NCBI GenBank assembly: GCA_025617375.2
Contig: JAMYGW020000013.1
Location: 496,001-560,000, forward strand
Length of the DNA stretch: 64,000 nt
Direction: 5' to 3'
Origin: Acarospora socialis
Lineage: Eukaryota > Ascomycota > Lecanoromycetes > Acarosporales > Acarosporaceae
How positions within the stretch are numbered: position 1 is the stretch's first letter; each line of letters opens with the position of its first letter. The notes beneath the pieces are model-generated. The model worked only from the letters and a program-made list of their open reading frames with translations, was not told the origin of the DNA and searched no databases. Made by a program: the position numbers and the translations under genes. This document shows positions 12,172 to 15,994 of the stretch, piece after piece.

Positions 12172-13254
12172 CTACTTCGCCTCTACTTCCTTCACTACCC
12201 TCCGCACAACCTCATCCAGGTCCTCCTCCTTCAGGCCCAGTTTCTCATTTGCCACTTCCCGGCCATGGAATTGATCTCCAAGGCCCCGTTTGAACGTGCA
12301 CCCGCACAGAACATCAATCATGCCCAACCAGTCGCCCTTGGCGAACTTGTCCCACCCTTCCTGTATATACTGATTGACGGGGATGTGCGTGAAGGTCCAG
12401 TCGGACGGTTTTGTGCCGGTGGCGCGCTGCACGGCGGCCAGCATGTCGTTTTGACTGACGGAGAACGAGGTAACGTATACGTACTTGTTCTTGTAATCCG
12501 AGAGAGATGGTGACGAGGGAGAGGAAAGGGTGTGCACCGGTAGACTCAGGAGTCGTGCGACGGCACGGCCGGTGTGGGCGACGGTGGTCGTGGTGAGGGC
12601 GGTGGTGCCGTCGTCGATGATTTGCGCTTTGCGCGCTAGGATGTCGATGCCGTACCATCCACCTTTCAGGCACTATAAGCACGATATAGATTAGCTAATA
12701 GACTCTGTCTGTGACGGGACTGGAGGCGAGGTCGTCATACGTAGTCGAACCAGAGGTTACAAGCTATACCGATCCAGCTGCTCCGTCCTAGCTCTTCTAT
12801 CTCCTTTCGGTACTTTGCTTTCACTTCCAGGTAGGGCACCGCCTTCGAGACCTCTGCGTTGGCACCGTCCTGCCCATATTCATTGGGCAGAATCCATGGG
12901 ACGCCGGCCTTGGCGGCGGCTCTGATGAGATCAGATTGAACTTCCGGAGTCGTCGTCACGGCCAAAGTAATGATGAGCACATCCTGACCTTCCAAGGCGG
13001 ATTCCAGGAACTCGGAGGACTTGTAGTCACCCTTCTTCACTGTGACACCAGGCGCAAAGGTGGCGGTAGAGTCTTGACGTGAAAGAGCCGTCACATTAAA
13101 GGTGCCGCATTCCAGTAAGCTCTTCACTATCTCACTGCCTACCAAACCGCCTGCCTGAATGTGGATGAGCTTCTCCTTCCTTTATGGAACTCGCTGTTCA
13201 GGTCATACTCACTCCAACGACTGCAATATTCCTAACATGGTCTTTCAAAGACAT
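12172..13254 (-). CDS. NmrA-like NAD(P)-binding protein, isoflavone-reductase-like
   Basis: Three exons (13213-13254, 12741-13154, 12172-12672) give 318 residues. The first intron interrupts the dinucleotide-binding loop; joined, it reads NIAVVGAGGLVGSEIVKSLL, a GxxGxxG Rossmann motif of the NmrA/isoflavone reductase type. It continues with VTALSR, VLIITLAVTT and WILPNEYGQD. The tail has GWYGIDILARKA and TTVAHTGRAVARLL, usual in fungal members. These atypical short-chain dehydrogenases act either as small-molecule reductases or as redox-sensing regulators that bind NAD(P) without catalysis. There is no Tyr-x-x-x-Lys pair, so I cannot tell which. The long 5' gap holds a MITE and is shared with the CPA1 leader. 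Confidence 0.85.
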
Positions 13255-13665: not shown

Positions 13666-13871
13666 TACGAAGGAACTAGTATTTAGTGTCCGGACGTACT
13701 GTAAGCGGCGACACAGATAACCCTACTATATCCTTATGCTTAACATCCCTATATAGGACCGGAATATGTGATAAGGAGTTGGTTTCTCAGAAGTTTGGTA
13801 ATTGATGTTGTGGTATTCAAATATGCTGCCGCTTATGGTACGTCCGGACACTAAATACTAGTTCCTTCGTA
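13666..13871. mobile_element. MITE, 206 bp, 44-bp terminal inverted repeats, TA target
   Basis: Positions 13666-13709 and 13828-13871 are inverted copies over 44 bp with two mismatches. The outermost dinucleotide is TA on both sides and can be read as the duplicated target, leaving an element at 13668-13869 whose ends begin CGAAGGAACTAGTATTTAGT. The 118-bp interior has no coding frame. TA duplication, long inverted ends and small size fit a non-autonomous Tc1/mariner or pogo/Fot1-type element; the superfamily is inferred. The near-identical arms suggest recent insertion. It sits between the NmrA-like gene and the CPA1 leader, 283 bp upstream of the attenuator-peptide start. Confidence 0.85.
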
Positions 13872-14153
13872 TATTTCCTCTCACTTCAACATGAATGATA
13901 TCATAATGCTCATTCCCGAAGATTTGGTTGTAGAAAACTCCTCAGGGAGGTCCACGCCCTTTCACACTAACGTAATCAGGCTAGGTCATCTTCACCCGCA
14001 CCAACTTCCTTTTAATCAGACTCTTATCCCAACTGACCCTCTAACTTAACCCCCACCACTGCAATCAAGCAAAAATACGGTGAAGAATCTGGCGACAATC
14101 AACACGTCTCAATTATCCAACACAAACGACAGTGCTAGGGCACCGTTGCGCTG

Positions 14154-14404
14154 ATGCGTGTGTCTCCATCAGTCTATACCTCGCAGGTAATGTCAATTCC
14201 TCGTCTGAATTCAATTCCAAGTCATTGCCGCCAGATTAATGGATGGGCTATGTTCTACCATCTCGGTCGTTATGAGATTTGAGGACTTGGCTAATAGCTT
14301 CTCAACAGGATTATATTTCAGGTACGATGAGCCGAACAGGGCTGCTGTTGCTGCTCGCTCACTGCGTCGCGATAGATCACCTCTGGAAAGCTTCTGTGAA
14401 CTGA
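14154..14404 (+). promoter_or_regulatory. Arginine attenuator peptide uORF in the CPA1 leader, spliced
   Basis: Three exons join in phase: 14154-14186, 14309-14321 (13 nt) and 14376-14404. Their introns are 122 and 54 nt, the first with a GGCTAATAG branch region. The product is 24 residues, with PSVYTSQDYISDHLWKA in its core. This matches the fungal arginine attenuator peptide, 24 residues in Neurospora arg-2 and 25 in yeast CPA1, with the key Asp12 in the same place. In those fungi the nascent peptide stalls the ribosome at its stop codon when arginine is high, which lowers translation of the synthase and triggers mRNA decay. Here the stop is 55 nt before the CPA1 start codon. The micro-exon carries Asp12, so correct splicing is needed for regulation. 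Confidence 0.93.
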
Positions 14405-14459
14405 AACGTCATACTTGAACAAACCAACCAAATTACACCATAACTACCAAGAGCACAAG

Positions 14460-15994
14460 ATGTTTCGTCACGTACTCAAGCAATGCCCGCTAGGGTATCA
14501 GAAGGCCTTTGGTCTGCAACTCAAGACTGGATCTCAATCACGCATGCTGGCCACAGTCCAGCAGAATACGCCCCGCCAGATGCCCGTGTCCAGGGCAAGG
14601 GCCACGCCAGTGTCTCATGACAGAGCTACTTTCACCATTCGAGTAAGGCTTACCCGTCTCGGTGCTCTGGTTGTCCTGTCCTGGGTATCTCGTAGCAGTT
14701 GCTGATCCTCATGTTTTAGGATGGTCCGGTTTTCCACGGCAAATCTTTTGGTGCCAAGTCGAACATTTCAGGAGAAGCAGTGTTCACCACTTCACTCGTT
14801 GGATACCCTGAATCTCTGACCGACCCTTCCTATCGGGGCCAAATTTTAGTCTTTACTCAACCCCTAATCGGTAATTACGGGGTTCCATCAGACGCTCGCG
14901 ACGAGCACGGTCTGCTCAAGTACTTCGAGTCCCCTAACCTCCAGGCGGTTGGTGTAGTAGTGGCGGATGTGGCAGAGCAGTATAGCCACTGGACAGCTGT
15001 GGAAAGTCTCAGCCAATGGTGTGCCCGAGAAGGCGTCCCAGCCATATCTGGTGTCGACACCCGAGCCATTGTGACATATCTGAGGGAGCAAGGATCCTCG
15101 CTGGCTCGTATCACCATTGGAGAAGAATACGATGCCGATCAAGACGAAGCCTTTGTTGACCCGGAGCAAATCAACCTTGTTGGCAAGGTCAGCACGAAAG
15201 CACCATTCCACGTTAGCTCCAACAACGGTGACCTTCATGTGGCTGTCATCGATTGTGGGGTAAAAGAAAATATTCTGAGGAGCTTGGTTGGGCGTGGGGC
15301 GAGCGTTACGGCTTTCCCATACGATTACCCGATCCATAAAGTTGCGCATCATTTTGATGGTGTCTTCATCTCCAATGGTCCCGGAGACCCTACCCACTGT
15401 CAACAGACGGTGTATCACCTCCAAAAGCTTATGGAGTCCTCTCAAATCCCAGTAATGGGTATCTGTCTAGGTCACCAATTGCTTGCTCTTGCAGCGGGCG
15501 CTCGCACCATCAAGCTCAAATACGGCAATCGTGCGCACAACATCCCGGCGTTGGACCTCACAACGGGACGTTGCCATATTACCAGTCAGAACCATGGTTA
15601 CGCGGTCGATGCCGCAACTCTTCCAAGCGAATGGAAGGAGTATTTTGTCAACCTTAATGACTCTAGTAACGAAGGTTGGTCCAGTTGATCGTGGATTTTA
15701 CGCTTTACGTGTACTGACATGTCACTTACAGGTATGATCCACAAGTCTCGACCCATCTTCAGTACCCAATTCCACCCTGAAGCCAAAGGCGGTCCACTTG
15801 ACTCCTCTTACCTCTTCGATGCCTACCTCGACAGCGTGTCGAAATACAAGCGTAACCAAGCTATCTTCCAGCCGAAGAGGGACAGCAGACCGAGTCCGTT
15901 ACTTGTCGATATCCTTGGTAAGGAGAGGGTTGGCGTGCAGCCTACCATCGGCATGGACAACATGACACGGGCAGCAGCAGCAGCGGCCGCTTAA
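14460..15994 (+). CDS. cpa1: Carbamoyl-phosphate synthase, arginine-specific small subunit
   Basis: Three exons (14460-14642, 14720-15674, 15732-15994) give 466 residues. The first 60 are basic and Ser/Gln-rich, fitting a mitochondrial targeting sequence, which is the location in filamentous fungi. The body starts [20 protein letters not shown], followed by the CPSase small-chain domain ([19 protein letters not shown]), then a class I glutamine amidotransferase domain. Its catalytic cysteine is C310 in GICLGHQ, with H394 and E396 in STQFHPEA. The enzyme releases ammonia from glutamine for the large subunit, the first step of arginine synthesis. Control by the attenuator peptide upstream is the main regulatory feature. 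The extreme C-terminus is a run of alanines from a CAG/GCA repeat. The frame also opens at a TTG at 14415, but 14460 is the first ATG. Confidence 0.95.

Follow-up and report, generated by a model that had tools for sequence, protein, structure and literature searches.

A Probable Arginine Attenuator Peptide Joined from Three Exons, One of Them of 13 nt, in the CPA1 Leader of Acarospora socialis

Introduction

Does the leader of CPA1, the gene for the small subunit of the arginine-type carbamoyl-phosphate synthase (CPS), encode in Acarospora socialis an arginine attenuator peptide (AAP) that becomes readable only when three short exons are joined, and does the splicing of a 13-nt exon within it serve as a regulatory switch? 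AAPs belong to the textbook examples of metabolite sensing by a nascent peptide. The residue Asp12 of the peptide considered here presumably corresponds to Asp13 of the yeast peptide. In the yeast CPA1 upstream open reading frame (uORF), the replacement of Asp13 by Asn abolishes the arginine response (PMC7969011). The known AAPs are described to halt ribosomes at the stop of the uORF when arginine is high, to be bypassed at low arginine by leaky scanning beyond a weak upstream ATG, or uATG, and to promote mRNA decay (PMC11550727, PMC7969011, PMC7049704). The genome comprises 31.1 Mb in 38 contigs, and the window, i.e., the whole stretch of 64,000 nucleotides that was analysed, covers the positions 496001-560000 of one contig; the coordinates below are those of the window.

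The Predicted Spliced uORF and Its Peptide

The spliced product MRVSPSVYTSQDYISDHLWKASVN, of 24 residues, is obtained by joining 14154-14186, 14309-14321 and 14376-14404 of the forward strand, on which all parts of the uORF lie. Exon 1 (14154-14186, 33 nt) begins with an ATG whose context is weak, with C at -3, and carries the codons 1-11, MRVSPSVYTSQ, of which the residues 5-11, PSVYTSQ, pair with PSVFTSQ of the PDB sequence 2xl1_A. Intron 1 (14187-14308, 122 nt, phase 0) has the donor CAG/GTAATG, the branch motif GGCTAAT 15 nt from its end and the acceptor CTCAACAG, and is followed by the micro-exon (14309-14321, 13 nt, GATTATATTTCAG). Intron 2 (14322-14375, 54 nt, phase 1), a stop-free multiple of three, combines the best donor of the leader with a weak branch motif, CGCTCAC, and a weak acceptor, while exon 3 (14376-14404, 29 nt) supplies the remainder of Asp16, HLWKASVN and the stop TGA at 14402-14404. 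The coordinates, the five lengths, the GT-AG borders, the frame, the 24-residue product and the stop had been given exactly in the initial annotation, which had also correctly placed the critical Asp12 in the 13-nt exon; it may be added that Tyr13, Ile14 and Ser15 are encoded by the same exon, which also contributes the first base of Asp16.

Among the PDB sequences, the spliced product matches the AAP 2xl1_A, a peptide which is taken here to be from Neurospora, with E 2.2e-7 and 14 of the 19 aligned residues identical, and this is the sole distinct PDB sequence matching at E up to 10. The AAP core residues Asp12, Tyr13 and Trp19 are present and occupy the same positions in the spliced uORF and in 2xl1_A, and the 24 codons, with the stop soon past the core, agree with the length of about 24 codons characteristic of AAPs. 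In the review PMC3130931, Lys14 is named as a critical AAP residue in addition to Asp12, Tyr13 and Trp19; the uORF has Ile and 2xl1_A has Leu at position 14, so that Lys14 is absent from both and may be a misprint.

For an estimate of chance, the products possible in 14001-14459, when no more than two GT-AG introns, each of 45-160 nt, and an upper limit of 42 codons are allowed, were enumerated and scored against the 19 residues of the 2xl1 peptide, with the products devoid of any of DY, HLW, SQ, SD and TS left unscored in the nulls. The three-exon product, with the score 86, is the unique top among 351 leader products; the next-best ones, scoring 61, have exons 2-3 in common with it and miss the AAP residues of exon 1, and none of the eleven runner-up splice solutions printed has PSVYTSQ of exon 1 directly before the core. 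The maximum was 33 in 200 dinucleotide shuffles and 38 in 418 overlapping 459-nt tiles taken elsewhere in the window on both strands (452,599 products). Genome-wide, on both strands, a degenerate micro-exon pattern occurs 228 times (124 for the reversed-pattern control) and an exon-3 pattern 28 times, one of them being the leader copy (19 for the control); either pattern alone is uninformative, and it is their order within the leader that is telling. The match to the AAP proposed initially is, therefore, confirmed, with the chance scores far below 86. The proposal of a spliced AAP uORF ahead of CPA1, unreadable in unspliced DNA, is likewise supported by the product, the PDB match and the chance tests, and the spliced uORF is very likely an arginine attenuator peptide, its three exons being probably joined by default.

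The CPA1 Gene and Its Surroundings

CPA1 occupies 14460-15994 of the forward strand and is interrupted by two introns (77 and 57 nt), and its ATG at 14460, which aligns with residue 1 of three homologues, stands 55 nt past the uORF stop. The Pfam domains CPSase_sm_chain and GATase of the encoded protein are those of a stand-alone CPS small subunit, and, assuming that one mRNA carries both, the uORF belongs to the leader of a gene for the small subunit of an arginine-type CPS. A second strong CPS match of the genome, the only other one, sits in an open frame of 2029 aa, as would presumably be the case for the fused pyrimidine enzyme. For the 302-aa fragment searched, the named best homologues belong to Pleopsidium, Acarospora and Bachmanniomyces (95% identity), and one further homologue reaches 97%; Pleopsidium is of Acarosporales and Bachmanniomyces of Ostropomycetidae, both within Lecanoromycetes, a class of largely lichen-forming fungi. 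The context of the uATG 14154 is weak, with C at -3 against A at -3 for 14460, and A at -3 was also found in all four other genes compared, actin and calmodulin having been dropped from the initial six because their aligned start was not an ATG.

No exact TGASTCA, which is assumed here to be the Gcn4/CPC1-type site, was found near CPA1, which counts against the reading preferred here, and the whole window contains five against 11.6 expected. A motif search for AAP fragments possibly fused by a gene predictor into CPA1-like proteins revealed none among the 120 listed of 8000 scored, and a contig scan for the leader in relatives, in which the fungal DNA reached was that of this genome, returned one bacterial locus with 47% identity, and none in viral contigs. 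Upstream, 282 bp before the uORF start, a MITE-like element was observed at 13666-13871, with 44-nt terminal inverted repeats that are 95% complementary; it has related copies in the genome (39 matches, itself and inverted-arm hits counted) and may be the source of a part of the promoter region of CPA1. A fragment of an NmrA-like protein lies farther upstream of CPA1 on the opposite strand (12735-13145, reverse).

The Leader Introns Against the Introns of the Genome

The splice sites were scored with a matrix derived from 57 training introns, obtained with a spliced aligner from 15 genes or paralogues of this genome by means of actin, tubulin, CDC42, ARF1 and calmodulin references and one CPA1 homologue. 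The gene labels other than CPA1 come from identity to the references, those of the alpha- and gamma-tubulin-like rows being less certain owing to a divergent reference; some misplacement is possible among the training donors, a few of which have low scores. The training introns are 42-157 nt long, with the median of 59, and five of the 57 attain the 122 nt of intron 1 or more. Among the 19 GTs in 14100-14459, the donors 14322 (7.76, with 43 of the 57 training donors lower) and 14187 (5.09, with 14 of 57 lower) rank first and second, and among the 17 AGs of the same interval the acceptors 14308 (5.58, with 45 of 57 lower) and 14375 (3.09, with 10 of 57 lower) are fourth and ninth, with 14321, 14186 and 14339 scoring above 14308, a ranking that counts against the three-exon reading. 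Both branch motifs lie 15 nt before the acceptor, within the training range of 8-24 nt, and, on the hand-set scale used for the branch motifs, only three of the 57 training introns are lower than intron 2.

In the GT-AG borders, branch distance and length, both introns conform to the spliceosomal introns of the genome, intron 2 being weak in branch and acceptor. Judged by sequence alone, both are very probably removed; a partial retention of intron 2 is possible because of its weak branch site and weak acceptor. There are 16 multiples of three among the 57 training introns, and just one of these, in a doubtful row, is stop-free, the class to which intron 2 belongs. In Yarrowia, stop-free introns of such length are reported to be under-represented in the coding regions, the few 5' UTR introns showing no length bias (PMC2911113).

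A Possible Second Acceptor and Hypothetical Alternative Forms of the Leader

The end of the micro-exon, ATATTTCAG, missed by the initial annotation, is the best of the 17 leader AGs (7.56 against 5.58 at 14308) and directly abuts the donor of intron 2, forming AG/GT at 14320-14323 of the forward strand, a possible alternative acceptor whose use would drop the micro-exon. Since CAG closes exon 1 as well as the micro-exon, joining at 14321 would rebuild the same donor, and a form devoid of the micro-exon could arise via an ordinary choice of alternative acceptor instead of exon skipping. However, the distance of AG 14321 to the best branch site, 28 nt, exceeds all those of the 57 training introns, and the candidate TTCTCAA, nearer at 18 nt, has the score 6.5, just below the training minimum of 7.

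The skipped form would contain an 18-aa uORF without the AAP core, and the form retaining intron 2 a 42-aa uORF with the same stop, in which the AAP is split by 18 residues. Five uATGs are located in intron 1 and one in intron 2, and the fully spliced leader from 14140 would keep one (14154) compared to six if intron 1 is retained. Each of the four alternative forms listed, as well as the unspliced form, has at least one uORF.

Does Splicing Switch the Arginine Response?

The initial annotation had supposed that the attenuator is lost when the micro-exon is skipped or an intron is kept, and that splicing could, thereby, switch CPA1 between arginine-repressible and constitutive translation. Only the skipped or the intron-2-retained form would plausibly be arginine-blind, and both keep a uORF. 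The notion that retention of intron 1 makes CPA1 constitutive was rejected: with the added uATGs, six instead of one, repression is predicted, and such retention would likely lower CPA1, the opposite of constitutive expression. The switch as a whole is not supported, and a 13-nt exon was discarded as a mark of regulation by itself, because other tiny internal exons occur in the genome, namely, one of 16 nt in the calmodulin gene, two of 24 and 26 nt in that of beta-tubulin, 28 nt in a Rho-type gene and 31 nt in actin, besides 27 and 28 nt in the less certain alpha-tubulin-like row. In the training genes, internal exons of at most 31 nt account for seven of 42, and 13 nt would be the smallest; the 16-nt exon at the calmodulin locus lies between introns after the residues 20 and 25 of the reference.

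Splicing in fungi is regarded as proceeding mainly by intron definition, with alternative splicing mostly as intron retention, and, in Trichoderma longibrachiatum, the latter makes up 93.4% of the events, against 302 alternative acceptors and 167 alternative donors of 10,034 (PMC4324775). Small exons that are either kept or skipped are reported for filamentous fungi, namely, a 15-nt exon of rtnA in Aspergillus niger, a 33-nt one in Neurospora (PMC6616335) and one of 20 nt in Trichoderma Xlr2 (PMC11121469), and, therefore, regulation is possible, if unlikely, here too. The splicing of the leader is probably mostly constitutive.

Alternative Explanations

An attenuator gated by splicing, in which a regulated inclusion of the micro-exon or removal of intron 2 would set the arginine response of CPA1, is regarded as unlikely. 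The micro-exon would be lost mainly via the acceptor 14321, 13 nt downstream of 14308, with the donor CAG/GTACGA rebuilt and intron 2 removed next, and such a route is favoured by the top score of 14321 in the leader, by CAG at the ends of both exons, by intron 2 as weak in branch and acceptor and stop-free in a multiple of three (one in 57 introns), and by the small-exon precedents cited above; it is opposed by the branch distance of 28 nt, with the nearer candidate below the training minimum, and by the uORF that each listed alternative form and the unspliced one retain. That the choice between 14308 and 14321, together with the stop-free retention of intron 2, sets the fraction of CPA1 mRNAs sensing arginine is decidedly unlikely. 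If the gating were true, the fungus would tune the strength of the feedback by splicing a 13-nt exon. The abutting AG/GT and the rebuilt donor bear also on a nested intron, stwintron-like or recursive, in which 14187-14375 would normally be removed whole in two steps, leaving the AAP to a minority of transcripts, and stwintrons are known in Pezizomycotina (PMC6616335); this is scarcely credible, given the same distance of 28 nt to the branch site and an intact AAP frame across three exons, which would be unexpected of a rare product. Moreover, a stwintron proper, with an inner intron that breaks up a splice motif of the outer one, is not seen here: each of the two introns has its own uninterrupted donor, branch site and acceptor, and only AG/GT abuts.

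The AAP-like product might also come from an arbitrary combination of GT and AG, or belong to a dead uORF that has lost its splicing, a very improbable reading to which the predicted status of the introns, the 351 products possible in the leader and the weakness of both the acceptor 14375 and the intron-2 branch lend some room, and against which stand the score of 86 versus at most 33 and 38 in the two nulls, the donors ranking as the top two, the intact start, frame and stop, and the critical residues kept.

Proposed Working of the Leader and Comparison with Known Systems

With the three exons joined by default, as preferred here, splicing would take out the two introns and, along with them, six other upstream ATGs, so as to leave, from 14140 on, 14154 as the single uATG, in its weak context. 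With arginine low, this uATG would be bypassed by the majority of the scanning ribosomes, which would start at the stronger ATG of CPA1; at high arginine, by analogy with the known AAPs, a stall at the uORF stop would result in the repression of CPA1 and mRNA decay, the same arginine feedback loop being expected by homology. An AAP with its core in a 13-nt exon illustrates how real regulatory peptides can escape uORF surveys that read the genomic DNA unspliced, and the leader offers a clean natural test of whether peptide-based feedback can be tuned by splicing.

No description of an AAP split by introns, or containing a micro-exon, was met in the portions of the CC-licensed PMC literature covered, and its absence from print is not claimed; the three-exon layout may be new. 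The tiny exon itself has counterparts in filamentous ascomycetes, such as Trichoderma Xlr2 (20 nt) and exon II of A. niger rtnA (15 nt); however, those exons (PMC11121469, PMC6616335) are part of transcripts that code for proteins, do not lie in a uORF and were observed to be lost, whereas here the exon is of a regulatory uORF and its skipping is hypothetical. The leaders of the Neurospora SAM decarboxylase (SDC) and of the fungal TPP-riboswitch genes (PMC5640933) are similar in that the leader introns decide which uORFs are carried by the mRNA, and the SDC leader is spliced into the forms with and without two uORFs, both observed, in contrast to the isoforms considered here, predicted from sequence. 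The closest likeness in the peptide is to the AAPs of the Neurospora arg-2 and yeast CPA1 uORFs, with which the core, the length, the positions of Asp12, Tyr13 and Trp19, the leader of a CPS small-subunit gene and the weak uATG are shared. The best reading is an AAP of the known kind, probably spliced by default, in an unusual exon layout, which differs from those of Neurospora and yeast by three exons encoding the peptide and by its core in an exon of 13 nt.
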